A stretch of DNA of 64,000 nucleotides from a virus, in the IMG/VR virus record IMGVR_UViG_3300007640_000029, positions 1 through 64,000 of that record; one strand, 5' to 3'. Below are positions 544 through 61,996 of this stretch, piece after piece. The position numbers and the translations under genes are program-made. How positions within the stretch are numbered: the stretch's first letter is position 1; each line of letters opens with the position of its first letter. The notes below the pieces were generated by a model. That model saw only the letters and a program-made list of their open reading frames with translations, made no database searches and was not told the DNA's origin.

Positions 544-1644
544 ATGCGTAAAATACTTAATCATAAGGATTTCATCTCTCTTCGGGATCTCTCGGAACCT
601 ATAGGTGAAAGCTTGTTGGAGTCCTATTATACCGACTATGCGGAGATTGATATTTCTGAGAAGAAAGCCTTAGATAGTCTTATGAATAATCTCTCTAAAA
701 GCCTTCTCGGCGGATTGTCCAGAATAAATCTTATAGATAACATAAGAAAGGGAGACCTCGATATAAAAAAGGAGATTATCACTAAGAAATATGAGCTAAG
801 AGATGAGCTTGATGCATTGGAGATAAAGAGGAACAAGGCACGTAGTGCAGGAAGTAGAGAAGCCCTGATACAAATCGAGAACGAGATTGATAAGAAGAAA
901 AAGGAATATTCTGCATTTGTCAAGATGAAAAATGCACAAATGAGAAAAGGTGCGGACCTTATGCATAAAGTTATTGACGGCAACGACAGGAGGAAGGAAT
1001 ATTATGAAACCGGTCTTGCTGACGACGAGTATGAACTTTCTAAATTTGAGTATGAAATGGCTAGAAAATCCAGTGAGGACTCAGATGAAATTAAAAAACT
1101 TAAAGCCAAATTTGATGAGGCTTCCAAAAAAGCTGACGAGTTAATCTCCAGGATATCCGCAAGAAAAAGCGCTTCTAGCTCGATAAAGGATTCGGATTTA
1201 TCCGATATAGGAGAACTCAAAAAGATCGTTGGGAATAGAGACGCTGGGGTTTTGATGGATCTAAGGGATAAGACTGCGGAGAGATCTGAAGCACTCAAGG
1301 AAGAATTAGTGGATCTACTTAATTCGATTAAGAAGGAGATATCTATGAAAAATGGCGGGAGTAAAAGAAAAATAAACTCTGCTTTGAGGAAGTCTACCTC
1401 TATTGCTAACGAGATTGATGCTTTGGAGAATCTATACACACTCTACTCTAGTGTTGGTAGAGGGAAAAAATCGATAGATAAAAAGCTTTCTAACACCACT
1501 TCACTGACTGATATTTTCAGTAAGATAAATCTAGCGGTGACTGATGGTAAAGACGCACAATCTGGTTTAACTAAGGAAATTATCGATCTCTCGAACAATC
1601 CTACTGATTCTAAGATAAAGTCTTTAACAAAAAAATTATCCTGA
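544..1644 (+). CDS. Coiled-coil internal head protein candidate
   Basis: 366 aa, very rich in Lys, Glu, Asp, Leu and Ser, with long heptad-like stretches (about residues 75-200 and 225-300), so mainly helical coiled coil. No catalytic motif or membrane segment was seen. The N-terminus has LNHKDFISLRDLSE, which fits the hydrophobic-x-F-x-x-L-x-E tag seen on other proteins of this window and the T4 capsid-targeting plus gp21-cleavage pattern. It is first in a four-gene run after the capsid terminator and a promoter box. The next ATG starts one base after its stop. A scaffold or internal virion protein is inferred from position and composition; I do not recognise the family. Confidence 0.7.
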   Translation: MRKILNHKDFISLRDLSEPIGESLLESYYTDYAEIDISEKKALDSLMNNLSKSLLGGLSRINLIDNIRKGDLDIKKEIITKKYELRDELDALEIKRNKARSAGSREALIQIENEIDKKKKEYSAFVKMKNAQMRKGADLMHKVIDGNDRRKEYYETGLADDEYELSKFEYEMARKSSEDSDEIKKLKAKFDEASKKADELISRISARKSASSSIKDSDLSDIGELKKIVGNRDAGVLMDLRDKTAERSEALKEELVDLLNSIKKEISMKNGGSKRKINSALRKSTSIANEIDALENLYTLYSSVGRGKKSIDKKLSNTTSLTDIFSKINLAVTDGKDAQSGLTKEIIDLSNNPTDSKIKSLTKKLS

Positions 1645-1645
1645 T

Positions 1646-2539
1646 ATGTTGCTAAAATTTTCAGAATGGAGCAGGAACAGCGAGATTAACGAATCTTCCA
1701 ATAAAACGGACAAGATTATAAACTGGCTGAGCTCGAATTTTGGTGGATCTGTTGCTAAAATAAACTCTTTGCTTGCTAAGATAAACAAGATAGAAACCCA
1801 ATATGCTAGGGATTGGAACGAAATCCAAACCGACATAGATGCGCTGCAGATTCAAAGAGCGCAGACCAAGAGCGATCCTGCGGAGGCTAAAAAACTGGAG
1901 AGGCTGATAGATAGAAACAGGAAACTTGTCGGAGCTTTGAATAAAAAGAAGGCCTCGGAGATTTCGAGGGTCGATAAGAAGGTGGAAGAGATAACCGAAG
2001 GAAACCCAAGACTTGTTTCTTATTGGAATTTGAAAAAAACAGAGCTTGAAGCTGAATTAACAGAAAAGCTATATAAACTTGCTAAGCAGCTCACCGACCA
2101 AGATATCGCAGATGAGCTATATGACAAGTATAAGGAAGCTGCTTTAGCGGCGAAAGAGAAGGATGAGAATTTCAGGAAAAAATTCGGCAGACTCGATCTT
2201 GCTAAACCCCTCGAAATTCCAGATCCTAGCACTTCTACAATCTCTAGAGCTAAATTCTCTTTAGATCCTATATTGGCCATGAATGCTGTTCAATTTACAA
2301 AGTATGCACAAGGTCTAGAAAAGAATCAGATTAAAGACCTCATCAAATTCATGACAACAGAAAGGAATGAAAGGTATGCTACTCTAGATACTGAGAAGGA
2401 TAGATTAGTTGGACAGGCTATGAAAAAAGGTCTCGATAAGAGCTCGGTGGATAAGGACCTAAAAGAGTTGAGAGAGATGATGATGGGTCAGATAAGGGAT
2501 TTAAGAACAAAAATTACTATCGCTAGAAGATATGCATAA
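1646..2539 (+). CDS. Coiled-coil protein with N-terminal capsid-targeting-like tag
   Basis: 297 aa, highly charged and helical, with coiled-coil-like segments at about residues 35-150 and 245-290. The N-terminus LLKFSEWSRNSEINES carries the tag F-x-x-W followed by INE, matching the (I/L)-x-E site cut by T4-type prohead proteases. No enzymatic motif was seen. It begins one base after the previous stop and its stop overlaps the next ATG by 8 bases (ATGCATAA), so translation is probably coupled. Likely an internal virion protein delivered with the DNA or left from the prohead core; the specific role is unknown. Confidence 0.7.
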   Translation: MLLKFSEWSRNSEINESSNKTDKIINWLSSNFGGSVAKINSLLAKINKIETQYARDWNEIQTDIDALQIQRAQTKSDPAEAKKLERLIDRNRKLVGALNKKKASEISRVDKKVEEITEGNPRLVSYWNLKKTELEAELTEKLYKLAKQLTDQDIADELYDKYKEAALAAKEKDENFRKKFGRLDLAKPLEIPDPSTSTISRAKFSLDPILAMNAVQFTKYAQGLEKNQIKDLIKFMTTERNERYATLDTEKDRLVGQAMKKGLDKSSVDKDLKELREMMMGQIRDLRTKITIARRYA

Positions 2540-2801
2540 CAATATTAAAAAGCTAAGCGAATTTCACTTGTTCGAAGGTGTTAATGAAGATTTAGTCAAA
2601 GCTAAAGCTGATGTTAACGAAAAACAAGCTGAGATTGCTGAAGAAATAGCAAAACAGAAGGAAGCTACCGATTTGGTAGAAAAAGCTGCGAGTATAAGAA
2701 GACAAGCAACACTCACTGGGCAAATGCCTGCTCTTTTGAATGCATTAGCTAATGCTATGCAAGCTAAAGCCGATTCTGGGGACACAACAAATATTTACTA
2801 A
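2532..2801 (+). CDS. Small helical protein with capsid-targeting-like tag
   Basis: 89 aa. The N-terminal LSEFHLFEGVNED repeats the tag, with L-x-x-F and then VNE. The rest is an Ala/Lys/Glu-rich helix (residues 20-80) with no Cys and no domain I can name. The start overlaps the previous stop in ATGCATAA, and its stop at 2799-2801 lies one base before the next ATG. Small size, tag and position resemble the internal proteins (IPs) of T4, which are cut by the prohead protease and injected. That role is inferred, not shown. Confidence 0.7.
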   Translation: MHNNIKKLSEFHLFEGVNEDLVKAKADVNEKQAEIAEEIAKQKEATDLVEKAASIRRQATLTGQMPALLNALANAMQAKADSGDTTNIY

Positions 2802-2802
2802 G

Positions 2803-5166
2803 ATGGGAAAAGAATATCTAAGATACAATCCGGTAGCTAGAAGCCTTTCTAGCACGTATCTCTCTTTAAACGAGAACCAAAACGTGGAGGATCTTATCAA
2901 GAGAATGGCAGATACTCTTGCTAGTAATTGCAAGAAGATTTGCTTCGATATTGCTTCTGATAAGAATAGAAATCCTGACCAATTCAGGAAAAAAGTTGAT
3001 GAAATGTCTGGTTCTTCCTCTGTTAAAAATCTCATAGCAAAAGCCAAGGATATCTGTAGTGATGTGGATGTTATAGATCCTCATTTTGCTCAGATTAAAC
3101 AGCTTTATTTGGATTCGCTTAGTTCCGTAGGAGAAGCGGTTAAAAGAGCTATAGAGATAGATACTTCCAAGGAAGCTAAATTCATAGACCTTTTCGAGAA
3201 AGCTCTTGCTAGGATGCAAACTGAGATGGATAAGATAGCTAAGGAGAAATCCCTTAATGAGGGACTTGTAATAGGATATGATGGTAGGGTTGATAGGCTT
3301 AGAAAAAATCTCATAGCTCTTATCTGTGATTCTAAAGGTAAGGATGCTAAAAATGGGTACGGAAGAGATTGGCAAAGGCTGTTTTCTCAATTAAAACAGC
3401 GTCTTGACTCCCTATCTTCACGTGACCAAAGGAAAGATCTTGTTGAGATAGAGAAAAAGGTTGACAATCTGTGTAAGGAGTACAACGAATACAAGGTTAA
3501 AGCTGCTGAACAGGTGATGGCAAAAATCCAGAAGGATGACGACCTTTATCAGAAATTCTCGGATGTCCAAGATCTCTTTACTAGTGCTTTGGATGCTGTA
3601 ACTAAAGCATTTACCCAGGAGGGTATCACTGAAATTAAGGTAAGGGAAGAGATGGAGGAAAAAGAATCCAGCATGAATGATAGAGTTTTCCCTTTAAAAA
3701 TGGGTGATAAGGATTCTGATCCTAGGTTAAGAGGTTGCGGAATAATAGAAGCTGTTCAGAAAGCTCTAATAGATGCATATTCTCCGCTGAAGAATGTACT
3801 AGAGCCAAGAGGTGGTGCTGATGGTAAATTTGAAGAAGGAACTTCTGCTGCAGTAAAAGCTATTCAGGGGGCTCTTGATAATAAAAACGTAAACGGGGAA
3901 ATTGATAAATCGCTTCTTGATTCCATATTAAAGCTTGATCAGGTTTCTTCACAGAATAAGGAATCGATAAATGACTGCCTGGACAAGATGAGAAAATCTT
4001 ATGCTAATCTTTCGGAATCATCCGTAATAGACGTAAGATCCTTTATGGGTTTGTTTGAGGACAAGAGATATATTGATCCTGATAGAATATCAGATGAGCT
4101 TAAGAAGTATGAGGAAGAGCTAGAGACCAGTCAGAGCACTGGTATGCCTACTACCTCGGATGTCATGTTAGCCGAGAGACTTGCAAAACTTTTAAGAACA
4201 AAGGGTTATAATAAAAACGCTGAAGCTGAGGATTTCTTGAGGGAAGATAAAACTTTAAAGGGATCTTGTCCTTCGGATTTCATAACATCATGGACTGACG
4301 CGGTGGACAACGATAAAGAGGTTTCGCATTTCGTAATGGTTGGTGATGACGGTAATGTATCTGTCTATCCTACTAAAAGACTTTCAACCAATGTAAATAA
4401 GCCATGTAACTGGAATAGCTATGCTAAAGTGCATGGAAATGATTCAGAAGATGTTGATTCGTTTGGTGATTGGTATACTAGCTACTATAAAAATTTCGCT
4501 GGCGTTGATTCAGATACAAAGTCAAAAGCCATAGGTGATGTGTTTGGTAAAAACGCAGATTATGCAAGTGATGGTCTTAAGGAGATGGAATCCGCGTATA
4601 GAAATTGCTCCGAGTCACTTGAACCGTGTGACAATAATATAAAGAAGGGATATATTCCAACCAATGCCCTCAGCACTATAAAAAGATCTATGGAAGGTGT
4701 GTGCGGGGATTCGATAGATTTGGATACACTAAGTCCTGCTGAGCAAAGGTTCATATACAATTGCGTTGTTTTCCTCGCTCCTCTCATTTCATATGATGGA
4801 AAGAAGGAGGAGTGGAAATGTGCCCTTGATATGGCTCTTGATAAGTATGACGAGGATGCAGAGGGGCTATCCAAAGCTATAATTAAAAATAGTTCCTTTA
4901 GATCTAAATCACCCATGGTAAATGAAGCAATGTGTTCTTTGGTCCCGGTAAAAGAATCCCATTCTAATGCTCATTGTTTGGAATGCATGAATATAAATGG
5001 TGATGTATCGGATGACGATTTCTTAGTTGTGAAAGATACGCTCAAAAAAATCTCCCCTGTGTTGAAAGCAAAGAATAAGCATTTGGATAGGATCTCAATA
5101 GTTGGAATAGATTCAATACCCTCTCATATGAAGGAATCCATCTATATTGTTCCAGGGTCTGCTTAA
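2803..5166 (+). CDS. Large virion-associated protein with a peptidoglycan-binding-like segment
   Basis: 787 aa starting at ATG 2803, one base after the previous stop. A longer reading from 2752 would run deep into the 89-aa gene and is not favoured. The N-terminal half is charged and helical. Residues about 330-380 (GADGKFEEGTSAAVKAIQ and following helices) look like the three-helix peptidoglycan-binding fold whose usual signature is DGxFGxxTxxAVxxFQ. The C-terminal half is globular with scattered Cys (including CLEC near the end) and no family I recognise. LSLNENQ near residue 23-29 could be a late copy of the head tag. Possibly an injected or wall-acting virion protein; no catalytic residues are identified. 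Confidence 0.65.
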   Translation: MGKEYLRYNPVARSLSSTYLSLNENQNVEDLIKRMADTLASNCKKICFDIASDKNRNPDQFRKKVDEMSGSSSVKNLIAKAKDICSDVDVIDPHFAQIKQLYLDSLSSVGEAVKRAIEIDTSKEAKFIDLFEKALARMQTEMDKIAKEKSLNEGLVIGYDGRVDRLRKNLIALICDSKGKDAKNGYGRDWQRLFSQLKQRLDSLSSRDQRKDLVEIEKKVDNLCKEYNEYKVKAAEQVMAKIQKDDDLYQKFSDVQDLFTSALDAVTKAFTQEGITEIKVREEMEEKESSMNDRVFPLKMGDKDSDPRLRGCGIIEAVQKALIDAYSPLKNVLEPRGGADGKFEEGTSAAVKAIQGALDNKNVNGEIDKSLLDSILKLDQVSSQNKESINDCLDKMRKSYANLSESSVIDVRSFMGLFEDKRYIDPDRISDELKKYEEELETSQSTGMPTTSDVMLAERLAKLLRTKGYNKNAEAEDFLREDKTLKGSCPSDFITSWTDAVDNDKEVSHFVMVGDDGNVSVYPTKRLSTNVNKPCNWNSYAKVHGNDSEDVDSFGDWYTSYYKNFAGVDSDTKSKAIGDVFGKNADYASDGLKEMESAYRNCSESLEPCDNNIKKGYIPTNALSTIKRSMEGVCGDSIDLDTLSPAEQRFIYNCVVFLAPLISYDGKKEEWKCALDMALDKYDEDAEGLSKAIIKNSSFRSKSPMVNEAMCSLVPVKESHSNAHCLECMNINGDVSDDDFLVVKDTLKKISPVLKAKNKHLDRISIVGIDSIPSHMKESIYIVPGSA

Positions 5167-5219
5167 TTGCAAGAAACATAGTTCATTCTTCCTGATAGAA
5201 TAGCTACATTCTTTGTAGT

Positions 5220-6146
5220 ATGAGCAAAATATACTTTTTAAGTTTTTGTAATATAAGGGAAGGTGCTACTGAAGAGGAGAGGAAATCTTTGCTAGGTAGC
5301 CTGGGGAACATCAGACTCTTATTAGATCCTTATTTCGATGACCTGTGGATATATGACAGAGAATCACTTAAATCACTTCCAGGGTCAGATAATTTCTGTA
5401 ATCCCTTGGGTGATATCTTAAATCTTAATCCAGGAATCAGTAGTGTAGGATCTGGAGATTTTAAGCCATTCTTGATAGATTACACACTAAAAAATATTGA
5501 GGAGGGATCGATATTAATTTACCATGACTGCAATTTCTCTAAATATCCCCAGTATTGGCAAACCCAATGGGGAAGGATAAAAGAAACATGTGAGTACCTG
5601 TTGGATATAAACGGGTCGGATTTCTTCTCCCCTTTTGAAGCCGACCTCCTTGACGGAAATCCTCCTCTTGTGGGTATGCACGGGAAAAGATATACCTCTG
5701 ATAAGATATTGGACAGCAAGGAGGATAGCGATATTGTTTCAGGGTGCTTTGAGATTGCATCGAGTAGGATGATAGTCCGGAATACTGAAAAATCCAGGGA
5801 GTTCTTTAGGGAGTATAAGAACCTTTGTGAGGATAAGAGCCTTCTGATGAGAAATCCGGATCCTGAACCGTATCAGAACTTCACACACCTTTGTCCAGAG
5901 CAGCATGTTTACAATTGTTTAATTTACAAGTATATCCTGGACGGAAAATTGAATATCAGCTTTCCAACATACTATTTTGTGGACCGTAGATTAATTATAG
6001 AGAAATATGCCCGTTACAGAATAAATCATAAATTGTGGAAATATATGGGTGATAGGAAGATAAAAAGAAAAGAACCAAAAAGCATACCGGATGGTAAGGA
6101 TATTCGAGGGTCCCAGAAATTCAGGGAAGACATTTTTAGCACGTAA
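5220..6146 (+). CDS. Putative glycosyltransferase-like protein
   Basis: 308 aa. It opens with a Rossmann-type strand (KIYFLSFCNI) and has ILIYHDCNFSKYP at residues 98-110. A YHDC block of this kind occurs in uncharacterised sugar-transferase-like proteins of phage and polysaccharide clusters. It is followed by GMHGKRYTSDK and a conserved Trp/Tyr-rich middle. No classical DxD is evident. The C-terminus is strongly basic. A sister enzyme lies at 9211 and a GT2 at 40423. The last 56 bases overlap the next gene in another frame. Sugar transfer to a capsular or virion acceptor is plausible but not proven. Confidence 0.5.
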   Translation: MSKIYFLSFCNIREGATEEERKSLLGSLGNIRLLLDPYFDDLWIYDRESLKSLPGSDNFCNPLGDILNLNPGISSVGSGDFKPFLIDYTLKNIEEGSILIYHDCNFSKYPQYWQTQWGRIKETCEYLLDINGSDFFSPFEADLLDGNPPLVGMHGKRYTSDKILDSKEDSDIVSGCFEIASSRMIVRNTEKSREFFREYKNLCEDKSLLMRNPDPEPYQNFTHLCPEQHVYNCLIYKYILDGKLNISFPTYYFVDRRLIIEKYARYRINHKLWKYMGDRKIKRKEPKSIPDGKDIRGSQKFREDIFST

Positions 6147-6633
6147 ATATGCTTCACATAGCGGACTGAGGATATTTAAGTTCGATTTTGTCGGGTGGTT
6201 CAATAGGTTAGATCTCCCAGACAACGGCGAGATTACTCATTCCTTTGCTTTGGGGAAAGAGCTAATGTTACTCCAGATGAATAGGGAGGGACTTCTCCCT
6301 GACTTTGTCTTAGATCGTGGAATACTCACTGTTCTTACGTGGGGGATTCTTTCTGGAAGGATTACTGAGGAACAAGCCCGATCCCAAATCGAGATGATAG
6401 CGGATCAAGGTCTCTTTAGCAAATGTGAAATAGTATACGTAACTGGAGAAAACCCAGATTCCAGTGACCGGAATAAGGATAACTGGGATTTTAGGGACGG
6501 CGATAATGCTGAATCGGAGATAATGGAAAATTTGAGAGATCTTATAGCAAATCAGCCCTATAATGTCCCAATTAGGTTTATTACTAACAGCTTTGACAAT
6601 AAATCAGTTGAAGCCATAATGAATATAGAATAA
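6091..6633 (+). CDS. P-loop kinase-like NTPase
   Basis: 180 aa. Residues 7-14 are GPRNSGKT, a Walker A loop placed right at the N-terminus as in small nucleotide and nucleoside kinases. Residues 75-77 are DRG after a hydrophobic strand (FVLDRG), the place of the DR(Y/H/G) motif of dNMP-kinase-like enzymes. IVYVTGENPD at about 114-123 is a later strand. The start is fixed because the P-loop needs the ATG at 6091, which forces an unusual 56-base overlap with the upstream gene. The substrate cannot be told: a nucleotide, a nucleoside or a polynucleotide end are all possible. One base separates it from the asparagine synthase gene. Confidence 0.6.
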   Translation: MVRIFEGPRNSGKTFLARKYASHSGLRIFKFDFVGWFNRLDLPDNGEITHSFALGKELMLLQMNREGLLPDFVLDRGILTVLTWGILSGRITEEQARSQIEMIADQGLFSKCEIVYVTGENPDSSDRNKDNWDFRDGDNAESEIMENLRDLIANQPYNVPIRFITNSFDNKSVEAIMNIE

Positions 6634-6634
6634 T

Positions 6635-8029: not shown

Positions 8030-8047
8030 AATAACTCAGTGCGGATA

Positions 8048-8056
8048 GATATATAA
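8048..8056 (+). promoter_or_regulatory. Putative late promoter box GATATATAA
   Basis: GATATATAA in the 42-base gap after the asparagine synthase gene, 15 bases before the ATG at 8072. It is flanked by TGCGGA (8040-8045) and TCCGCA (8067-8072), which could pair in a read-through transcript. Confidence 0.6.
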
Positions 8057-8071
8057 AGAAAAAACTTCCGC

Positions 8072-8737
8072 ATGGATAATGGAATAAAGACCTTTGATGA
8101 GTTTAGGTCGAATCGTGACGTTAACGAATCCGGTATATATGACTACATAACTGGTGCTTTGTCATCTGTTATGACTCCTCTTAGTGACGTATTTAAAGGC
8201 AAGGTAACTGCATATTTGCTGGGTAATCTAGGTATAACCGAAAATTCCATCTTTAGTAAGCTTGTGCAGAACTTCGTTGAGCAGATACCGATCAATGATT
8301 ATTTCACCATACTTTTTAGCGGAAAGACTAGCGCTAGTTATTTAGCCCCCAAAGCTGCCGATGCGACCATGGAATTTCTTACTGAGATGGGACTTGACGG
8401 TATAGCTGAAAAACTAGGTATTGATAAGAACGGATGGATCTATAGAACAATATCTGAAATGTTCAGCAACGAGGTAAGAAGGAATAACTTTAGGGACCAA
8501 CTGGAGGGATTTTACCTGGAGGCTTTTAATGGATTTGAACCTGTTGACAGGGATTCTTTCATTAGAGGATTAAGTCCGACTGACAAGGGGAGTATAGAGA
8601 AAGCAATCAGAACTGATATAGACAGAGAAGGGAATTCTTTGGAGATAGACAAGGGTAATATAGTGGATGACTTTATAGGTGGATTAATCTCCTCAGCTCC
8701 TGCTAACAGAAATAGCTTTGGCTACAATCCAAGTTAA
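8072..8737 (+). CDS. Tagged virion protein candidate, unknown function
   Basis: 221 aa. The N-terminus IKTFDEFRSNRDVNES is the clearest copy of the window's tag: F-x-x-F, then VNE, very close to the T4 internal-protein start MKTYQEFIAE. After the tag come alternating hydrophobic helices (about residues 22-125) without a clear transmembrane span, then an acidic C-terminal third. No catalytic motif was seen. It has its own promoter box upstream. It is probably targeted to the prohead and trimmed after VNE; the function after delivery is unknown. Confidence 0.65.
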   Translation: MDNGIKTFDEFRSNRDVNESGIYDYITGALSSVMTPLSDVFKGKVTAYLLGNLGITENSIFSKLVQNFVEQIPINDYFTILFSGKTSASYLAPKAADATMEFLTEMGLDGIAEKLGIDKNGWIYRTISEMFSNEVRRNNFRDQLEGFYLEAFNGFEPVDRDSFIRGLSPTDKGSIEKAIRTDIDREGNSLEIDKGNIVDDFIGGLISSAPANRNSFGYNPS

Positions 8738-8766
8738 ATTAACCAGGAAAAAGAAAATTACAGAAC

Positions 8767-9126
8767 ATGAATATAAATGATGTCGCAAAAAGGGAAGTTC
8801 TAGACTTCGAGCAGTTTAGGAAAAAAGTTCACGACGAGAATTTCAAACCCTTCTCTGAGGAGAATCAAACCGGAGGCGAGGAGAAGACTGGATTACATAA
8901 GATAAAAAGGGAGCCGGCTTATGATTGGGTTGGTTATGCTGATGCAGTATTTAGTCCGGAAAAAGCGGGAATTCAAGTTCCTGGATACAACGCCAAGGGA
9001 GATAGAGACTACGTAAACGCGATAGGTGGAGTAGGAATACAGGAGCCCGGTATGAGAGCTACAATGGATACATCGGAGAGTACTGTTAACGAATCCATAA
9101 TTACAAGGCTATCTGATTTCGAGTAA
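8767..9126 (+). CDS. Small tagged protein, unknown function
   Basis: 119 aa, polar and charged. Near the N-terminus is VLDFEQFRKKV (F-x-x-F tag core), and near the C-terminus TVNESIITRLSDF, which carries a VNE site 11 residues from the end. So the two halves of the tag signal lie at opposite ends of this protein. The middle is Gly/Pro-rich and probably unstructured (GYNAKGDRDYVNAIGGVG). It lies 29 bases after the previous tagged gene and is closed by a strong terminator. Probably a virion component; nothing more can be said. Confidence 0.6.
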   Translation: MNINDVAKREVLDFEQFRKKVHDENFKPFSEENQTGGEEKTGLHKIKREPAYDWVGYADAVFSPEKAGIQVPGYNAKGDRDYVNAIGGVGIQEPGMRATMDTSESTVNESIITRLSDFE

Positions 9127-9156
9127 GGAATAAGAACATATGATTTATGTGAGAAA

Positions 9157-9184
9157 GGCAAGTTTTTCGAAACTTGTCTTTTTT
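9157..9184 (+). terminator. Rho-independent terminator
   Basis: Nine-pair stem GGCAAGTTT/AAACTTGTC (one G-T pair) with loop TTCG, followed by six T. It ends the run of genes from 8072. Confidence 0.9.
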
Positions 9185-9210
9185 GTTTCTGTATAAACCA
9201 AAAAGAAGAT

Positions 9211-10605: not shown

Positions 10606-10627
10606 GGCGGAATTTTTTATGTTCATC

Positions 10628-10636
10628 TTATATATT
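10628..10636 (-). promoter_or_regulatory. Putative promoter box AATATATAA on the minus strand
   Basis: On the minus strand this reads AATATATAA, preceded by GGGGA. It is the same element as on the plus strand, so the box is used in both directions, and it helps decide the start of the minus-strand gene. Confidence 0.5.
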
Positions 10637-10687
10637 TCCCCTTTGTGTTTTTGGGTAAGACATTAAAAAGAACCTTCAAAGCGGAGG

Positions 10688-10696
10688 GATATATAA
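10688..10696 (+). promoter_or_regulatory. Putative late promoter box GATATATAA
   Basis: GATATATAA preceded by GGAGG, 25 bases before the ATG at 10722. The GGAGG is upstream of the box, so it is not a ribosome site. Confidence 0.6.
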
Positions 10697-10721
10697 TACA
10701 TAAAAAAAGTGAAGTAAGATA

Positions 10722-11159
10722 ATGCCAAGAATTCACGACTACGTTTCTTTTGATAACTCCAAGGGTAGAAGGGTTTCTAGCGAGTATTCATTCTCTCATG
10801 AGCTAGGATATCTAGATATTGATTTGATTAATAGACCCCCTGAACTTGTAGATGTTGATGAGAAGGAATGCGAGATAGAGTACTCGGTTTCTATAGGTAG
10901 ATCAAAATCAGGTATACAGGATCTTAAATTTCAAATCGACAACATAGAGCTGGAGCTCAAGGTTGACTCATATCCAGATCCACCCAAGGAATATGAGATG
11001 GATATAGTTCCTGGTGAAAACATAGATATGTCTTCGGTTCTTTGTAAAAAAGCTCGGAATCTGATTCCGTGTAATCCCACCAAAGTAGTTGTTGATATGA
11101 GAAAATCCATGAATCCTAAGGATTTTAAAATAGACGTCTTATTTGGTGAGAATGAGTAA
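10722..11159 (+). CDS. Hypothetical acidic protein
   Basis: 145 aa, acidic, with a predicted mix of short beta strands (VSIGRSKSGIQDLKFQID, IELELKVDSY). Only two Cys are present, and no catalytic motif or membrane segment was seen. It is the first gene of a compact run (10722-14064) behind a promoter box. The stop overlaps the next start in ATGAGTAA. I do not recognise the family. The beta-rich, Pro-containing C-terminal half would suit a small structural or adaptor protein, but that is a guess. Confidence 0.6.
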   Translation: MPRIHDYVSFDNSKGRRVSSEYSFSHELGYLDIDLINRPPELVDVDEKECEIEYSVSIGRSKSGIQDLKFQIDNIELELKVDSYPDPPKEYEMDIVPGENIDMSSVLCKKARNLIPCNPTKVVVDMRKSMNPKDFKIDVLFGENE

Positions 11160-12066
11160 TCCGGTCCTAAATTTTGGTGAGTTTATCAACATAAACGAGA
11201 GCCATTTCCCCAATAAGACAAGCCTGGGGATATTGGGCCCTTTTATCGACGGTGTAGTTAAAATAAAAATACCCCATACCGGGGAGAATAATCGGATATC
11301 ACACAGGGAAACACCAGAGGGTCATAATCTAAGCTATGGCGACAGAACTATTTCCGTGCCTAAAAAGTGCATGAAGAAGACTAATTTCGGTGATTTTGAT
11401 ATTCTTAAGGTTGACACATTCATGAATTGGTTTGACGTTAAAGAAAATAGCTTAGCGTTCGATGATTTCCTTGAAAATTATATCTCTTCGGAGATTGCGG
11501 GAGCTAAATCTAACCCCTCTGTGGGAGAGGATATTGAATTGATAATGGATATGCTTGGTGTTGATTGCTCCGTGGCTGAGATTACTGAGATTGATGAAAA
11601 TTTATATGAAGCAGACCTCGATAACGGAATGCAAGTTGAGCTAGATCGTAAATCGAAGGATGACCTTTTCAAATCTATTAGAGTTTATAAGGATGCTAAT
11701 GATATCCATCCTGCTTTCACATTGAAGAAAAATGGTGGAAAATTTGGCTGCAAGTATACTACGGATAAAGGTTCACATGCTACCTCCCATGATAAGATAC
11801 AGGGCATAAAGTCCGATCCTGTTGACCAGTATATGTTATCCATTGTAATGGGCAAGGATGCGGAAGAGCATCAAAAAAATCTTGTCGATCATTTGCTTAA
11901 GATGTTGAAATATCATTCACGTTCGGATGAATCCCCTGTTGATGAACGCAAGATCAGAGAGAAGAGTGAAATAGATAATCTGATGAACGTTCTAAAGAAC
12001 ACCATTCCAGAGTCCCATATTGAAGAGATGTACACACACGCTAGAAGCAATTTCTCTAGTAAATAA
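11152..12066 (+). CDS. Tagged protein, unknown function
   Basis: 304 aa from ATG 11152; an alternative Met three codons upstream is less likely because 11152 gives the ATGAGTAA overlap seen elsewhere. The N-terminus VLNFGEFININES is a textbook copy of the tag: F-x-x-F then INE. After it, residues about 20-100 are beta-rich (TSLGILGPFIDGVVKIKI). The middle has an acidic helix pair, and the C-terminal 100 residues are helical with many Lys/Glu. The HATSHDK stretch has two His, but no known metal site. Probably a packaged protein, processed after INE. Confidence 0.65.
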   Translation: MSNPVLNFGEFININESHFPNKTSLGILGPFIDGVVKIKIPHTGENNRISHRETPEGHNLSYGDRTISVPKKCMKKTNFGDFDILKVDTFMNWFDVKENSLAFDDFLENYISSEIAGAKSNPSVGEDIELIMDMLGVDCSVAEITEIDENLYEADLDNGMQVELDRKSKDDLFKSIRVYKDANDIHPAFTLKKNGGKFGCKYTTDKGSHATSHDKIQGIKSDPVDQYMLSIVMGKDAEEHQKNLVDHLLKMLKYHSRSDESPVDERKIREKSEIDNLMNVLKNTIPESHIEEMYTHARSNFSSK

Positions 12067-53526: not shown

Positions 53527-53542
53527 TGCTCAGAAAATCCAG

Positions 53543-53551
53543 AATATATAA
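53543..53551 (+). promoter_or_regulatory. Putative late promoter box AATATATAA
   Basis: AATATATAA, 19 bases before the collagen-like fibre gene at 53571 and just after the 1844-aa gene. Confidence 0.5.
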
Positions 53552-53570
53552 ACAAAGATAAGATTTTAGC

Positions 53571-55058: not shown

Positions 55059-55076
55059 TCTCTACTATAATAGGAT

Positions 55077-56759
55077 ATGGCTACATTCAATACTAAATAC
55101 ATTTTACCTGGAGATTCTAAGAATAAGATAATTACTAAGGTAAACCATAATTTTAACCAGGTACATTTTAATGCCATAGGGGAACAAGGACCTAACGGAG
55201 CTATAGGTGCTACCGGCATAATAGGTCAGGCTGGATTGGACGGGGATCGAGGTACAACAGGGGATAGAGCATCTAATTGGTACTTCTCCCCCTCGCAGCC
55301 CTCAGCATCAATATCCCAACCTGGTGATATCTGGATTGATATAGGAAATACCGGTGGTCAGGATGTGTATAAATATTCTTCAGCTACTGGTGGTTGGATT
55401 AATACTGGAGAAACTCTGGAGACAACGGGTATTTTTGCATCGCTATCTCAAATATCGGGCCCAGGGGGATCTACTGAGGATAATGCGGTACTTATAAATT
55501 CTAGTCCCGGGGATAAGTATTTGACCCTTTCGGACTTAAGCGGAACTACAGGTGACGTTAATCCGAATTTTGCAAAGTTGTTGATAAGTACTGTTTCTAA
55601 TACCTACAGTCCAATATTAGGGATCGATAAAACATTTTTTGATAGAAGTAACATAGGAGGGTTCTATTGGAAGAATTCTTCAACCTCGGATTATGACTTA
55701 GTCTGGAAAAATCCGGGCTTTTCCAGATATGCTGCTAAATCTATAACGTTGGGTGTAACCGGGAATATTGATTCATTTCCTGCTGGATCGAATAATATAA
55801 AATCCCAGAGCTACATAGGAATAACAGCTTCTAGTTCCCAAATTATTTCTTCTGGAAATCTCAGTGTTAATTCATCTAATCTCCAGTTAAGTAGTGCTAT
55901 TTTCGGGGCTGATTTTACTTCCGGTCCTGTTATTATAGGTCCTACCGGTTTCTCCCATAGAATTACAAGTGCCTATGGAACGAGTGGACTTATAAACGCA
56001 AATTCTACTGGAAGTAAGGGCATGAGGATTGGATTATCTAATACCGCAGGGTATGGGACAACTTCTGGTTATGGAAGTGCTTTACAGCTGGGCAGGGATT
56101 CTAATTCTGCCTCGGCACACAGGGGACAGTCCTTTGAAGTTAGATCTAACGGGGATTCATTCCAAATCGGATCCTCTAATTTTTCTTCTAATACCTCGGG
56201 TGTAACCGGAGGAAACCTAACTAGATACACACAGACGATATCCACTCCGTTCACCTCCACCTTTGTTAGAAGCGGGGTTACATATTACCATGTTCCAGTT
56301 ACTCCATCGGAGGACATTGTGATTATTAAACCATCTGCTATCGCAGTCTCTGTAGTTAGTAATTATCGTAAGGGCAGATTTTATCTTACCGTAGGTAACA
56401 ACTACAGCTGGTTAAATCTGTCACTATATAAATATAGAACAATAGAATTTCTTGTCGAGGACACTACCAGATCCTTTGGTGGAATAAGAGTAAATATTAA
56501 TGGATCCTCGAACTATAATCTGGTAGAAATACCTGATAACTATTCTTCTGGCATGAATCCTGGGGCTTTGGGGTGCAAAAGAATAAGACTCACCTTTATC
56601 AATGGTAATTCTTCTCTCTTCTATGAAGCTTTCGGTAATAATGATACTTCCGCGGGCACTGCAGGAGGTGTCGATGGAAATAATGCTAATATAGCCGGAT
56701 GGGTTAGCTACAACTCAGTTGTAACAGTTCCTGGAGGAGGTGGTGGTGTAATAATATAG
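55077..56759 (+). CDS. Tail fibre with collagen-like segment, paralogue
   Basis: 560 aa. It shares with the upstream gene the start helix (IITKVNHNFNQV), about ten Gly-X-Y triplets (residues 35-64) and the following blocks with SNWYFSPSQP, ISGPGG and NPNFAKLLIST. The shaft and tip differ. The C-terminus ends in a Gly-rich stretch (VPGGGGGVII). Duplication and divergence after the shared base suggests two fibres, or a heteromeric fibre, with different tips. It starts 18 bases after the first paralogue's stop. Confidence 0.75.
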   Translation: MATFNTKYILPGDSKNKIITKVNHNFNQVHFNAIGEQGPNGAIGATGIIGQAGLDGDRGTTGDRASNWYFSPSQPSASISQPGDIWIDIGNTGGQDVYKYSSATGGWINTGETLETTGIFASLSQISGPGGSTEDNAVLINSSPGDKYLTLSDLSGTTGDVNPNFAKLLISTVSNTYSPILGIDKTFFDRSNIGGFYWKNSSTSDYDLVWKNPGFSRYAAKSITLGVTGNIDSFPAGSNNIKSQSYIGITASSSQIISSGNLSVNSSNLQLSSAIFGADFTSGPVIIGPTGFSHRITSAYGTSGLINANSTGSKGMRIGLSNTAGYGTTSGYGSALQLGRDSNSASAHRGQSFEVRSNGDSFQIGSSNFSSNTSGVTGGNLTRYTQTISTPFTSTFVRSGVTYYHVPVTPSEDIVIIKPSAIAVSVVSNYRKGRFYLTVGNNYSWLNLSLYKYRTIEFLVEDTTRSFGGIRVNINGSSNYNLVEIPDNYSSGMNPGALGCKRIRLTFINGNSSLFYEAFGNNDTSAGTAGGVDGNNANIAGWVSYNSVVTVPGGGGGVII

Positions 56760-56797
56760 ATTTAACCGTTTGAACACTTTTTAAAACTTGGATAAAT

Positions 56798-57043
56798 ATG
56801 ATAAAAAGATTAACCAAAATAGAACTTAAAAAAGCTCAATCAATGAAGTCTGAATTTGCTAGAGTTAGAGGCGAGATAGAGAAAGTTCAGTCGGAGATGG
56901 AAAGGCTAAACATGAAAGCTGGTACTCTAATCCGGGAACTAGAAGACTTGAGAGATTCAGAGCAGGATTTTATCAGTTCTCTGGGCGAAAAATATGGTGA
57001 GGGAAGACTCGATCCCTTCGAAATGACATATGAAACTTTATAA
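56798..57043 (+). CDS. Small coiled-coil protein
   Basis: 81 aa, a single charged helix (residues 1-65, with EIEKVQSEMERLNMK) likely to form a coiled coil, and a short acidic C-terminus. It overlaps the start of the membrane-anchored gene by 14 bases, so the two products are probably made together. There is no signal peptide. It may be a partner of the 263-aa protein or a tail-fibre chaperone; no family was recognised. Confidence 0.55.
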   Translation: MIKRLTKIELKKAQSMKSEFARVRGEIEKVQSEMERLNMKAGTLIRELEDLRDSEQDFISSLGEKYGEGRLDPFEMTYETL

Positions 57044-57821
57044 GGACACAGTATCTTTTTTAACCGGAAGGATTTTCCCGATCCTGCTGTCCATATTGCT
57101 TATGCTCTTGTTATTTAGACAGTGCGGCATAACGGAAAGAGCAAGAGAGGAAGCTAATAGAAATTTGGGCAATTTACTAGCCCAACAGGATTCTGTTAGG
57201 CATTTGGAAACTAGATTAAGCGGTGCTTTAGCGGAGAGGTCTGCTTTTAAACTAAAATATAATGAGCTCTCTGACGAGCAGGAAGATCTTATAAAAAGGC
57301 TAGAATTAGAGAGAAAAAGGAAACCTGGAGTCATAATTAAAACGGAGATTGTTTATCGTGACACAACTATCGTGGTCTCATCTACGAATCACAACGAGGG
57401 TGACTCATCTTATATAGCTTTCTCTTACAACCCGGTATTACCCGGTACTAATCGTCTCTTAATTGACGGTACAATACCTTACACTTTTGATAGCGACAGT
57501 ACTATATTTCCTGGGGATGCCTCTTTAAGTATAGAGCAGAGAATAGACCTGGTCACTGGTTTATATAGTAATCCTGATGATGGCTTGTTATACATCAGGG
57601 CCTCTACTGATTTTCCTGGTTTAAAGTTCAGAGAATTACAAGCTCTTAACATGATAGACGACCCGGAGACTAAAAGGGCTCTGAAGTCGGCAAGAAGGAC
57701 TTTTGGTGTTGGTGTATCCGCAGGCTATGGTATTTCTTTAGACAACGGCGGATATACAGTTGGTCCTTTCCTAGGAATTGGACTAAGTTATTCCCCCAAG
57801 TGGCTTCAGTTTGGAAAATAA
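57030..57821 (+). CDS. Membrane-anchored coiled-coil protein, spanin-like
   Basis: 263 aa. Residues 15-29 (IFPILLSILLMLLLF) form one transmembrane helix near the N-terminus, then FRQC, which is not a proper lipobox. Residues 34-95 are a coiled coil (EEANRNLGNLLAQQDSVRHL), and a linker with strands follows. The C-terminus has VGVSAGYGISLD and VGPFLGIGLSYSPKWLQF, which resemble outer-membrane beta strands ending in an aromatic residue. An inner-membrane anchor, a periplasm-spanning coiled coil and an outer-membrane-like end would suit a spanin. No endolysin or holin was recognised beside it, so the lysis role is inferred. Confidence 0.55.
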   Translation: MKLYKDTVSFLTGRIFPILLSILLMLLLFRQCGITERAREEANRNLGNLLAQQDSVRHLETRLSGALAERSAFKLKYNELSDEQEDLIKRLELERKRKPGVIIKTEIVYRDTTIVVSSTNHNEGDSSYIAFSYNPVLPGTNRLLIDGTIPYTFDSDSTIFPGDASLSIEQRIDLVTGLYSNPDDGLLYIRASTDFPGLKFRELQALNMIDDPETKRALKSARRTFGVGVSAGYGISLDNGGYTVGPFLGIGLSYSPKWLQFGK

Positions 57822-57833
57822 TAAATAGATAGA

Positions 57834-60275
57834 ATGGCTTTTACGACAACCTCTAAATATGTACAACTTTCCCCGTATCTGGTCATGGAATATATGTATG
57901 CCAGCCCACCTACCCCGGAGAAGTACTTTGTCAATATTGGCAGCCCCACAGTGGGTTATAATAAGCTCGTAAATGGCTTACTGGAAGATTCGGACGGACA
58001 GCCCTCTAATGACGTTCAAATATTCAATCTGGACGAGAATGCTTCAATTACACAGAACACGTCCAACAATAGTGTGGTGCAAACTAATTCCACGACCTTC
58101 GTAACTCTAAACCCTAATTTAATAGTCCCTTATAACGACTTTAAATCTGAGCTTACCAACACCGCTGATCTTCCTATATCTTTTCCATCGAATCTCAGTG
58201 TTGTGTATGACTCCGTGAGGTACCACATCCTATCCGGGTATAATTTGGATAACCTGGATGGATTGATACTAAATGTTAAGTACCCGGATGTAGACGGATC
58301 TTATGTTACCTTTTCGCAGATTAAACTCTCAAAGGGTAATTCCCAGCAGTATACGTTGAATCCTAGTCCTTTAACAATAGGTGCTAACATATATGATAAG
58401 TATTTCGAGGTGAAGATACCTTCACTCTCAGATATGGTCAATAAATACAATGCTGCTAGTGTATCCAATCGACCTTTAACCCTTGCCGCTAAAACTTCGA
58501 AAAGTGGGAGAGGATTTTTAGCTTCTCAGCCTCTAAGAATAAGTGCCTATTCCATAACTGATACTACGATTGTTAGCGGATATGAAACCTATGGTACTCA
58601 ACTTTTAGCAGCATTATCTCTCGAACCCACTGATCCATTCAGTAACATAGGAGCTTATATTGCTCCAGCAGATACTGGAGATTTCTTTGAATATTTCGGA
58701 ACAGATGATGGGGGTTTTATAGAGGATTTCATACTGTTTCAGAATTCTATAGGAAACAGCTACTATATAGAGAATAGGATAGAGGTTCTTGAGCAGGTTG
58801 GTGCAGCTTGGCTTGAAACATCTAATTTTACTAGTATTCAGACTTCAGCATACGACGTCCCGAATTTATTTAGACCTATTGTTAGGTATTCTAATGTTGC
58901 TACGAGCTTTTCATTGAGGTATACAATGACACTCATTAACAGTAAGAATCAGACAAGAACCATGAGGGTTGCTACTTATACTTCAACTGATCCTGGTAAA
59001 TATGGTACTACCATTGCTCCTCTGCAACTTTCCGTTTTACCTCAGCAACAGAAGATATACAATAAGCTAGGAGGTAAAACTGATATTTCAGTACCGGTTA
59101 ATCAAATATCGCCCAGAGAGATTACCAAATTTTCTAACGTGTTCTTTGATAGAAATCTAGTAAACACTTCTCTGACAAATCTGGAAGTAAATGGAACTAC
59201 ACTAACTGAAACCAATGAGTCTAGTACACCTTCAGTTTCGTATGGGGTAGGCAAAGCTTATATAAAGATCAGCCCGTTTGATAACTACTACAAATTTTCC
59301 TTCTTTAAGAAAGGACAAGGAAATACAACCCAGGAGATAGACCTTAGCTCCTCTGGAACTTACAATATGGTTTTCATAGACAACAAGGGTAAAAAAGTTT
59401 ATGCACCTTCAATTGCTGACGCTACTATAGCAAAGCCTTCTAAGGGGGAGCTTGCTTTCAAAGTGGATGAGTCGATCTCTACACAGATCCTTCAGTTTAC
59501 AGACCGAAGATTTTATATCACTAATAAACCGCCAGATCCCGATGGCGATAATGTTGATACGAGGGGAATTTCTAAGGTTAATAAGGTTAAATCTCTGCTA
59601 GCTAAGAAAGCTATTAGTTTAAGAGATTCTTCCCGTGATGTTGTAATTGCATCCAAAAGGGATTCTAATACTAGTAGAGCCGTCAATACTGCAAAAATAG
59701 GTGGAAATTCTTTTTCTACTCTTTACTGGGGTAATTGGCTAAAGGACGGAGAGACTGAGCCAGTTCAAACAGCTGTAGCAGCTGAAGTGGTGGTAGCTCC
59801 AACCTCACCTAGGACTAAACCTGTATCAAAAAGAGTTGGAAAAAGTTCCTGGCAGGTTTCGGGAGTACAAAACGGAACTTCTGGAACTAGTGGATTAGGC
59901 AGAAAAGCTGGTAATGTAAACCGAAATAACCAACCTAAGCTAACCCCAGTTCAGCTGAAATCTGCAATCTCCTCCGACGTGCAGGGTAAAATAGCTACCG
60001 GGTGGACTACTCAGGAAATAATAGCATATTTCCTGGACCCAAGTTCAACCGGCTACAAGCTTTATGTTGGAATTACGAAAAATCTTTTTGTAGATGCAGT
60101 TGACGGGATATTCGGAAGTGGAGATATGGAGCTAGTTCTTGCTTATGGAAACACCAGTGCGGGAAGAGCTACTGGCGGATCTGCTTCTTCCAATGGATCT
60201 ACTGCTAACCAATCCGGTAGCGATAGCGGTTCTGCAAACTTTGACCCTGATTTCGGTTTCGGTGGCAGAAGCTAA
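57834..60275 (+). CDS. Large virion structural protein with disordered tail
   Basis: 813 aa. It begins MAFTTTSKYVQLSPYLVMEY. Residues 1-560 are beta-rich with few charged clusters (ISFPSNLSVVYDSVRYHILS). Residues about 565-700 are basic and linker-like (SKVNKVKSLLAKKAISLRDS), with a Thr/Pro-rich stretch. A small folded unit at about 710-770 (SAISSDVQGKIATGWTTQE) precedes a Ser/Gly/Asn-rich tail. The C-terminal unit could be a docking or peptidoglycan-interacting helix bundle, but I cannot assign it. It starts 12 bases after the spanin-like gene. Confidence 0.55.
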   Translation: MAFTTTSKYVQLSPYLVMEYMYASPPTPEKYFVNIGSPTVGYNKLVNGLLEDSDGQPSNDVQIFNLDENASITQNTSNNSVVQTNSTTFVTLNPNLIVPYNDFKSELTNTADLPISFPSNLSVVYDSVRYHILSGYNLDNLDGLILNVKYPDVDGSYVTFSQIKLSKGNSQQYTLNPSPLTIGANIYDKYFEVKIPSLSDMVNKYNAASVSNRPLTLAAKTSKSGRGFLASQPLRISAYSITDTTIVSGYETYGTQLLAALSLEPTDPFSNIGAYIAPADTGDFFEYFGTDDGGFIEDFILFQNSIGNSYYIENRIEVLEQVGAAWLETSNFTSIQTSAYDVPNLFRPIVRYSNVATSFSLRYTMTLINSKNQTRTMRVATYTSTDPGKYGTTIAPLQLSVLPQQQKIYNKLGGKTDISVPVNQISPREITKFSNVFFDRNLVNTSLTNLEVNGTTLTETNESSTPSVSYGVGKAYIKISPFDNYYKFSFFKKGQGNTTQEIDLSSSGTYNMVFIDNKGKKVYAPSIADATIAKPSKGELAFKVDESISTQILQFTDRRFYITNKPPDPDGDNVDTRGISKVNKVKSLLAKKAISLRDSSRDVVIASKRDSNTSRAVNTAKIGGNSFSTLYWGNWLKDGETEPVQTAVAAEVVVAPTSPRTKPVSKRVGKSSWQVSGVQNGTSGTSGLGRKAGNVNRNNQPKLTPVQLKSAISSDVQGKIATGWTTQEIIAYFLDPSSTGYKLYVGITKNLFVDAVDGIFGSGDMELVLAYGNTSAGRATGGSASSNGSTANQSGSDSGSANFDPDFGFGGRS

Positions 60276-60287
60276 TCACAATACGTT

Positions 60288-60818
60288 TTGGAATTTAGAA
60301 GAGGTGAGTTTATTCATAAGGGACCTTTTAAATCCCCAACTAAGGATCTTTTCGATAATTGGATTTCTTCATGGATAGACTTTAATGGCACTCCTACTGT
60401 TGATCTGTATCTTTGTGGAGCTTTTTGCTCAAACTACTTTCTAGATACTGATATCGATACAACAGACATCGACGTGATCTTATCTGGTAATAAATTCAGA
60501 TATGCCGAGTTAAAGGACCTCCTAGATTCAGGGGTTTCAATAGGGATGGAAATGGGAATTTTGGTTGATATCCTATGGAGAGAAAATGCTGGTTCGTTCT
60601 ATAAAGGAAGAAAGATAACCAACTACACGGATCTTGAGTTTTTTGATGGTGATAATAGGTTTGAATATATAGTGGAAGGAGATTGCAAGGAATTGATCCC
60701 GGGTCTTTACATGTATTCTAATTTTGATACTAGTCAAGCTCTGGAGAAATCTGAAAGAAATAACTATAAAATAAACCACGTTAAGATAGACTATGAGCAT
60801 GTTAAACGCAAGGGCTAA
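60288..60818 (+). CDS. Minimal nucleotidyltransferase-like protein
   Basis: 176 aa, apparently starting at TTG 60288, twelve bases after the previous stop; the next in-frame Met (codon 87) would remove the active site. Residues 41-44 YLCG and 60-63 DIDV (in DTTDIDVILSG) fit the GS...D-x-D core of the polymerase-beta nucleotidyltransferase fold, and VDIL at 93-96 can supply the third Asp. Such small enzymes transfer NMP to protein, RNA or antibiotics, or are inactive binding proteins. Its place between two virion genes is unexpected. It overlaps the next gene by 26 bases. Confidence 0.6.
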   Translation: MEFRRGEFIHKGPFKSPTKDLFDNWISSWIDFNGTPTVDLYLCGAFCSNYFLDTDIDTTDIDVILSGNKFRYAELKDLLDSGVSIGMEMGILVDILWRENAGSFYKGRKITNYTDLEFFDGDNRFEYIVEGDCKELIPGLYMYSNFDTSQALEKSERNNYKINHVKIDYEHVKRKG

Positions 60819-61353
60819 TAGCTTTTACTTCGTCTTTCCAAGAGGATTTTTCCCTGATATCGTACAGGAGAAGTACCTAGACTACATTAAAAGACAGCCT
60901 ACCCCTTACGACACTATAACTTCCTTCATGAATAGCTCCATTCAATCCGTGGGATTCCCTGGGATGAGTATGGATCTAGTGGAGCAGACAAGAAATCTGG
61001 GTAAGCGGGTAAATTACCAAAGTGCGACCCCAGTACAAGACCTATTTAGCAGAGAATTTGAGGTCTCTTTCCGCATATCTGAGGGTTTCATAAACTACTT
61101 CATAATGCTGGAGACGGTTTTGGACAAGCTTAATTTTAAAAACCCGCAGGTCTTTATTCAGAACCTGCCATTAAGAATACTTGATAACGATGGGAATATA
61201 GTTACTACGGTAACTTTTAAGGAAGTAACCCTAACATCGATGAACAACCTGAATCTCAATTACACCCAAAATGCTCCCAGTGTTTATACGTTCTCTGTAG
61301 GCTTTAAGTGCAATTATTTGGATATATCGCTAGAAATTGGCAGGGAGAGGTAA
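60793..61353 (+). CDS. Tail tube-like or sheath-associated structural protein
   Basis: 186 aa, the size of tail tube proteins of the gp19/gp54-related fold. The order of strands FEVSFRISEGFINYF, a helix (MLETVLDKLNF), then VTTVTFKEVTLTSM and YTFSVGFKCNYLDISLE fits the beta-barrel with one packing helix used by tube and tube-initiator proteins. The FPGMSMDL turn before it is where tube proteins have their long loop. A second Met two codons later is an equally possible start. The tube role is inferred from shape and size; I see no diagnostic motif. Confidence 0.45.
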   Translation: MSMLNARANSFYFVFPRGFFPDIVQEKYLDYIKRQPTPYDTITSFMNSSIQSVGFPGMSMDLVEQTRNLGKRVNYQSATPVQDLFSREFEVSFRISEGFINYFIMLETVLDKLNFKNPQVFIQNLPLRILDNDGNIVTTVTFKEVTLTSMNNLNLNYTQNAPSVYTFSVGFKCNYLDISLEIGRER

Positions 61354-61362
61354 GATATATAA
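61354..61362 (+). promoter_or_regulatory. Putative late promoter box GATATATAA
   Basis: GATATATAA directly after the stop at 61353, 20 bases before the preferred ATG at 61383. It decides that start, because a longer reading from 61308 would lie upstream of it. Confidence 0.6.
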
Positions 61363-61382
61363 AACAGAAAAAATCGAAGAAG

Positions 61383-61631
61383 ATGAAAAAATTCTCTGAA
61401 CTAACTCAGTTAAACGAAATGAAATATGGTCAGCCCATGTATGGCGAGGATGACCTAAAGCAACATATGAAAGATCTATTGGTTGCTGCTTCAGGTAACG
61501 ACCAAAGGGTTCTTAATGACCTGGTCTCTTGCTTGACAGATGACCAGATGAAAAAATGCTACGACAAGCTTGTTAATGTCTATAATTACACTGGCAAGAA
61601 GGGAAATGTAGTTAAACCATCAATGGACTAA
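61383..61631 (+). CDS. Small tagged protein
   Basis: 82 aa from ATG 61383. It starts MKKFSELTQLNEMKYGQPM: F-x-x-L followed by LNE, a compact copy of the window's tag and very close to T4 internal proteins. The rest is a small helical domain (QHMKDLLVAASGNDQRVLND) of unknown function. It has its own promoter box, and its stop overlaps the next start as TAATG. Likely a packaged internal protein, cut after LNE. Confidence 0.7.
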   Translation: MKKFSELTQLNEMKYGQPMYGEDDLKQHMKDLLVAASGNDQRVLNDLVSCLTDDQMKKCYDKLVNVYNYTGKKGNVVKPSMD

Positions 61632-61996
61632 TGGAAACGATACTTACCTACGAATCCTTTACTAACCCTTCTAAAGGTTCTATACAGATCAATGAAAAAT
61701 TGGAAGTGAAGAAGAGCAGTAATGGCAATATAATTTTAAACGGCAATGAATATCAACTCGAGGCCGAATTTAATCCAGGTAATTATCTAAATCCATTTGG
61801 AAAAAAATGGAATAGAGTTGAAGTAGTCGATCTCAAACCTTCAGGAGAGAGTTTAAAAGTTAAAATAGTGGAACCTACCGAACTTGAAAGCGCTATCGAC
61901 AAGAAGATAGTGGATAACATAGAGAAAGCGGTTACGAAAGGGGATTCTGAAATAGAGATTCCGGGGCTAGTTTCTAAAAGACTGGTAAAGGTTTAA
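61631..61996 (+). CDS. Small tagged protein, beta-rich
   Basis: 121 aa. The N-terminus METILTYESFTNPSKGSIQI followed by NEKL carries the tag (Y-x-x-F, then INE after a longer spacer). The body is made of short strands (SNGNIILNGNEYQLEAEF, WNRVEVVDLKPSGESLKVKI) and a closing helix (AIDKKIVDNIEKAVT). It is coupled to the preceding tagged gene by TAATG and followed by a strong terminator. Probably co-packaged with its neighbour; function unknown. Confidence 0.65.
   Translation: METILTYESFTNPSKGSIQINEKLEVKKSSNGNIILNGNEYQLEAEFNPGNYLNPFGKKWNRVEVVDLKPSGESLKVKIVEPTELESAIDKKIVDNIEKAVTKGDSEIEIPGLVSKRLVKV

Follow-up and report, generated by a model that had tools for sequence, protein, structure and literature searches.

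About 20 proteins encoded on the 116,154-bp virus contig IMGVR_UViG_3300007640_000029 begin with a short common segment, referred to here as the tag, which we consider, with a probability of about 0.85, to be a capsid-targeting sequence (CTS) of the T4 type that would direct the protein to the phage head and be trimmed by an S77 (gp21-type) prohead protease. The sequences place this arrangement with the T4 CTS/gp21 system, of which it forms a large variant. In the window, which covers the first 64 kb of the contig, an earlier, sequence-only reading had pointed to eight such N termini and proposed that this phage loads many proteins into its head and trims them with a gp21-like protease. The enrichment of the tag, the protease gene of relatives, the retrieval of T4 internal proteins (IPs), and a matching LNE/S site in the capsid protein support that proposal. 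The likeness of the tag to a scaffold repeat, its occurrence at C termini, and its presence in the largest phages appear to be new points.

The tag exceeds chance expectation and its key residues are conserved

The tag is mostly 10–25 residues long (up to ∼40 in the protein starting at position 544) and consists of a seven-residue core, with conserved F/Y at +3 and F/Y/W at +6, and a putative [ILV]xE cut site. Simple [ILV]xE regular expressions were not selective enough to tell tags from chance matches (37 matches versus 25 in shuffled sequences), and a held-out profile was used instead. The training set for this core profile comprised 39 tags, all of them taken from five relatives (G003, G004, G007, G009, and G015). 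On the held-out contig, 11 proteins scored at least 10, compared with 0.75 for shuffled N termini and 0.43 for internal Met-started segments; similarly, a strict tag expression gave 13 matches versus 1.9 in shuffled and 1.6 in internal sequences. Further, the core and a downstream NE were associated (Fisher p 0.001), and [ILV]NE was found 11 times at residues 10–19, compared with ∼1 per 1000 positions elsewhere. Of the 121 gene families with conservation across three or more of six contigs, 18 had a mean N-terminal core score of at least 7, whereas shuffled copies gave 0.00. The genome-wide N-terminal motif search suggested in the sequence-only reading thus returned an enrichment with the strict expression, the held-out profile, and the family test alike. 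An equal frequency of the pattern in non-virion enzymes, which that reading had named as evidence against itself, was not found: a set of recognizable enzymes is untagged, and in 15 untagged control families, asparagine synthase and ribonucleotide reductase among them, the core was never seen together with NE. The exceptions among enzymes are an adenylate kinase and a RimK-like ligase, which do carry the tag.

Conservation within families picks out the same residues. The 36 homologues of the protein at 8072 (24–54% identity) share just six invariant columns. These include F11, which is the second aromatic position of the core, and E19, the residue predicted as P1. The predicted P1 Glu is 100% conserved in four families, those of the proteins at 544 (E39), 1646 (E16), 8072 (E19), and 2803. 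In the predicted model of the 8072 protein, residues 1–20 are of low confidence or disordered, and the helical body begins at residue 20, directly after NE19. When the tagged proteins of nine genomes are taken together, the putative cut sites have mostly L/I/V at P3, mostly N at P2, and mostly S/A/N/G at P1′, and about one-quarter of the high-scoring cores have no such site nearby.

The tags also match the known CTS of T4. In the IPIII sequence MKTYQEFIAE, residues 4 and 7 serve targeting and residues 8 and 10 serve processing (PMC9026906), and the positions that matter there are those conserved in the tags here. Consistent with this, the profile, trained without T4, ranked IPI, IPII, and IPIII first to third among 249 T4 open reading frames (ORFs); with the Met position left out, they ranked 2, 6, and 5, respectively.

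Relatives encode an S77 protease fused to a scaffold of tag-like repeats

The first gene of the contig (positions 2–448, plus strand) is incomplete and encodes only the last 148 residues of a gp23-type major capsid protein (PHROG major head protein, 2e-17); its frame is open from ORF 101–448 back to the first bases. Because the contig begins inside the capsid gene, everything upstream of that gene, presumably including the protease and scaffold genes, lies off the contig, and for this reason a PF03420 search of the contig, in which no positive control was scored, gave no match. The gp21-like protease that the sequence-only reading had expected upstream of the capsid gene is, however, present in relatives. 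By capsid, these comprise 80 IMG/VR loci that were kept (capsid identity of 87–100%) and, among named phages, the Lak phages of Prevotella, Tenacibaculum phage PTm1, and uncultured huge phages. Immediately ahead of their capsid gene, relatives whose capsid proteins reach 98% identity to that of the contig carry a gene for an S77 protease (PF03420 at 29.3 bits against a cut-off of 27 and PHROG head maturation protease at 1e-32). With T4 gp21 as the positive control, PF03420 was found above cut-off in 18 of 20 relative contigs. The GExxHP and SSR motifs are invariant in an alignment with T4 gp21, and we take the His of the former and the Ser of the latter to be the catalytic residues of the gp21 family. 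Further, the capsid protein of ∼70 relatives has an invariant YHSLNES ∼40 residues in, ending a pro-region, and this LNE/S site is the same as that in the cargo tags.

The protease ORF of the relatives is ∼670 residues long and continues from the protease domain into a fused scaffold of 10–14 (about thirteen) tandem 14-residue repeats. In 505 repeats from 39 distinct proteins, the consensus is N[LV]DKxIxYSEY[LIV]AE, with Y7, Y10, and E14 essentially fixed; because a stretch was counted as a repeat only if it had an aromatic or aliphatic residue at position 7, an aromatic residue at 10, and E at 14, the informative part is the choice of Tyr only at 7 and 10. YSEYLAE of the scaffold is the same unit as YQEFIAE of T4 and FSEF..INE of the cargo. 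Of the matches to the unit [FY]x[EDQK][FYW][ILV][AN]E in 0.69 million residues from nine tag-bearing genomes, 82 fell in scaffolds, 27 lay within the N-terminal 40 residues of other proteins, and only two were located anywhere else (p 6e-20). The same pattern in T4 retrieves IPII, IPIII, and one other small ORF, on the minus strand (NC_000866, 20112–20411), which starts MMTRKYVKWIAED and may be a further CTS protein or a chance match.

Tagged proteins of the contig

The eight N termini of the sequence-only reading are all present, at 544, 1646, 2532, 8072, 8767, 11152, 61383, and 61631, although two of them are internal ATG codons (61383 in ORF 61308 and 11152 in ORF 11143). The bodies, described in that reading as unrelated, are not without exception so: the protein at 544 is a paralogue of that at 1646 (27% identity, E 5e-9). 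Likewise, the core is mostly followed by [ILV]NE as described, except that 544 lacks NE and 8767 has V-x-D in its place.

All tagged proteins of the window are on the plus strand. The core-type protein at 544–1644 has the core segment ILNHKDF and the predicted cut IDISE39/K, with E39 invariant in 40 homologues, which mostly show [ILV]NE where it has IDISE. Its paralogue at 1646–2539 (LLKFSEW..INE16/S; core score 14.3) belongs to a family in which E16 is invariant among 49 homologues and F5 and W8 are kept in 94–96%. A small protein at 2532–2801 (IKKLSEF..VNE/D, with an alternative predicted cut FE15/G; core score 13.9) has 23 homologues, with F11 and E15 conserved in 96% and N18 in 100%. The ninth case in the window, which the sequence-only reading had overlooked, lies at 2803–5166; the protein of this 804-amino acid ORF has the N-terminal segment YLRYNPVARSLSSTYLSLNE/N, with an atypical core, and the Glu of LNE is invariant in 43 homologues. 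The protein at 8072–8737, for which an all-helical fold is predicted, carries IKTFDEF..VNE19/S. That at 11152–12066 carries VLNFGEFININE/S (core score 10.6) and belongs to a family of six with a mean N-terminal core score of 7.6, and the 82-amino acid protein at 61383–61631 carries MKKFSELTQLNE/M, with F4, L7, N11, and E12 invariant in six homologues. For the protein at 61631–61996 (ILTYESF..INE/K; core score 10.1), no homologue was found.

Beyond the window, ∼12 more tagged proteins start at 70620, 71103, 74409, 76435, 79613 (minus strand), 88503, 91602, 92452, 98101, 100870, 104349, and 106476. The protein at 88503 is the adenylate kinase, with which solved kinases align only from about residue 21, where those enzymes begin; the tag is thus an added extension outside the enzyme fold. 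In the RimK-like ligase at 104349, the tag stands ahead of the domains. Most of the tagged bodies were left without an assigned function by PHROG, Pfam, and PADLOC searches, and a fold search with the predicted model of the 8072 protein gave no credible match. At the right end of the contig (113855–116130), seven tRNA genes and one tmRNA gene are clustered.

Some proteins carry the tag core at the C terminus

Two conserved families, those of the proteins at 8767 and 77122, have a core at the C terminus. The protein at 8767–9126 is doubly tagged: an N-terminal VLDFEQF is followed by V-x-D, which is invariant in the family, and a VNES stands near the C terminus, in ...SE104/S..VNES..ITRLSDFE. 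Both cores are conserved in ∼40 homologues; the C terminus of the family reads [SN]E/S...IKRLSDF, with Glu104 invariant in 40 homologues. In T4, an Asp at the corresponding place blocks cutting and still allows targeting, and Alt and gp21 are cut C-terminally (PMC9026906). The 77122 family (members in G000, G003, G009, and G015) has a C-terminal core too. The minus-strand gene at 106050 and genes of like local setting in G009 and G015, linked to it by position only, also encode proteins that end in the core. Some other C-terminal matches (the primase at 67296 and the 29510 family) look like ordinary protein parts and were set aside. In the open-access literature searched, no description of a C-terminal targeting core was found.

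The small protein encoded at 77122–77613 of the contig resembles the N-terminal region of the capsid protein (..TVxGMGAV....GSGDKFxSL; 35% identity over 57 residues, E 8e-5), and the likeness rises to 56% identity in the relatives (G003, 948; G009, 134993; G015, 133330). The family is possibly a capsid-peptide mimic with a C-terminal tag core.

Tags occur in the largest phages and on diverse putative cargo

In a collection of annotated phages, the scaffold repeat was found in only six genomes, all of uncultured huge phages. In the first 400 kb of each genome, core scores of at least 10 were reached by 41 proteins in LR745206 (634 kb), 31 in LR756503 (735 kb), and 21 in LR756500 (462 kb), compared with ∼4 expected in each. 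The 634- and 735-kb phages have the repeat scaffold along with the tag, whereas the scaffold of LR756500 has a degenerate repeat, and the tags of this phage have the form MKYIKxYxDFLNE. In LR756503, a core LKNLTEF stands at the N terminus ahead of a putative glutamyl-tRNA synthetase signature (133267–134895). PTm1 has neither the YSEY repeat nor an enrichment of the tag and was dropped for the latter reason as a cultured test system. Lak phage A1 has a tag of another form, LYxxIMxxISxxVKxxLNE, on six or seven proteins (0.3 expected), which is apparently a separate head-loading signal; the positions in its record are 3261, 39000, 103233, 212646, 216330, 310297, and 393226.

Among the tagged proteins of the relative G009 (343 kb) are SLT and CHAP wall hydrolases and peptidoglycan-binding, OmpA-domain, and DUF5856 proteins. 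One further tagged protein of G009 (208290–208943, minus strand; FHQFINE/S) looks by eye like an ADP-ribosyltransferase, has no Pfam or PDB match, and is not claimed as such; were this candidate confirmed, it would parallel T4 Alt. In G015, three adjacent paralogues (147039–149936) have the common tag MKHLQSFSLFEARKTS and differing numbers of leucine-rich repeat-like units.

A model of head loading and its alternatives

In the model that we propose, a short N-terminal helix ([IMVL]KxF[SN][ED]F or YxEY) would bring the protein into the prohead core during assembly, and the S77 protease, which in relatives forms one polypeptide with the scaffold, would cut after [ILV]xE, mostly [ILV]NE, such that the mature protein would be freed inside the head and delivered into the host along with the DNA. 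We infer further that the tag would bind the scaffold by imitating one 14-residue repeat (NLDKxIxYSEYLAE); the cargo would join the core as the scaffold does, and the same protease would dissolve scaffold and tags. The chances that cargo is loaded by such mimicry of a single repeat unit seem to us about even. In its fullest form, for which we would offer similar odds, the tags of giant phages would be single copies of the scaffold repeat that act from either terminus, the fused protease would erase both repeat and tag, the cargo would run to tens of proteins with metabolic and wall-degrading enzymes among them, and Lak-like lineages would have evolved a tag of their own.

Several observations weigh against this model. 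The protease and scaffold genes are not on this contig, and some tagged proteins (76435 and 106476) have no obvious cut site. The likeness of tag and repeat spans ∼7 residues, and the Ile stands at −2 from the first aromatic residue in the repeat and at −3 in the tag. The predicted model of the scaffold is helical but of low confidence (predicted local distance difference test score of 50), which lends weak support at most. Lak A1 combines an S77 protease with its different tag, and no matching repeat was seen in its scaffold. Further, T4 scaffold protein gp22 is without the YSEY repeat, and mimicry is thus not a universal mechanism of T4-type phages unless there is a partner yet to be recognized.

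The absence of the repeat from gp22, although T4 has the same CTS, speaks for tags that target the head without mimicry, by binding another core component or the inner surface of the capsid; the likeness would then reflect protease specificity and helical composition, and a shared [ILV]xE would be expected from the protease alone. This remains a tentative alternative, and we hold it to be somewhat doubtful because the likeness extends to Y/F-S-E-Y/F, which a protease would not have to recognize, because the combined unit is nearly confined to scaffold repeats and N-terminal tags in the nine genomes, and because PTm1 lacks repeat and tags together. Targeting to a membrane or another intracellular compartment, such as an assembly site or a phage-made compartment, would suit a short amphipathic segment found on enzymes such as the adenylate kinase and RimK-like ligase, but the tag has the cleavage site of the capsid protein with its invariant Glu and resembles both the T4 CTS and the scaffold repeat, making this explanation improbable.

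We give even less credence to the tag as a functionless relic of gene-start duplication, spread by recombination from shared ancestry. Tags on many unrelated bodies and the three adjacent paralogues of G015 could be read in this way; however, spacing and flanks vary while the aromatic residues and the P1 Glu are fixed at 24–50% body identity, which argues for selection, and the C-terminal copies would be left unexplained. Finally, a chance combination of hydrophobic N termini with common [ILV]xE tripeptides has a negligible probability: [ILV]xE alone is indeed common, as the loose expressions showed, but the held-out profile, family-level, and conservation tests refute this explanation.

If head targeting by T4-type tags is correct, the tag may serve as a reading key that flags tens of anonymous giant-phage proteins as likely injected early effectors, giving a list for functional study, and as a new protein-loading handle in phage-based delivery. 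In the literature searched, we found no description of how the prohead core recognizes the T4 targeting sequence; a scaffold of about thirteen repeats with the same unit would be a direct, testable answer to that question.

Comparison with known systems

In the open-access literature, CTS work was found for T4, P1, and SPN3US and none on this clade or on CTS-like scaffold repeats, which is weak evidence of novelty. DarB of phage P1 is similar by description, its sequence not having been compared, in that its N-terminal residues are enough to carry a reporter into the head; it differs in being a single protein of a phage without a separate scaffold (PMC9024508). In the giant phages phiKZ, SPN3US, and 201phi2-1, too, numerous inner head proteins are cleaved, and the protease is a divergent one of the gp21 type (PMC10052503, PMC9026906), whereas their cuts follow S/A-x-E, their propeptides are mostly >100 residues long, and they have no common short targeting core; the tags described here show neither the S/A-x-E cuts nor the long propeptides of that type. 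PTm1 is closer in gene order, with an S77 protease fused to a scaffold directly before a gp23-type capsid gene and [IL]NE sites in the capsid protein, and differs in its lack of repeat and tag enrichment noted above.

The closest likeness is to T4, where unrelated bodies also follow a short N-terminal stretch in which two aromatic residues are spaced by three and I/L-x-E comes next (PMC9026906, PMC5694885), and where an S77 protease, seen for this clade in relatives, is combined with a gp23-type capsid protein with a similar cut site. In contrast to the three IPs and Alt of T4, ∼20 tagged proteins are found here on 116 kb, P2 is mostly Asn, and the gap from core to cut varies from 0 to 16. The clade further differs from T4 in having a protease-fused scaffold with tag-like repeats, C-terminal tags, and enzymes and wall hydrolases among its putative cargo.

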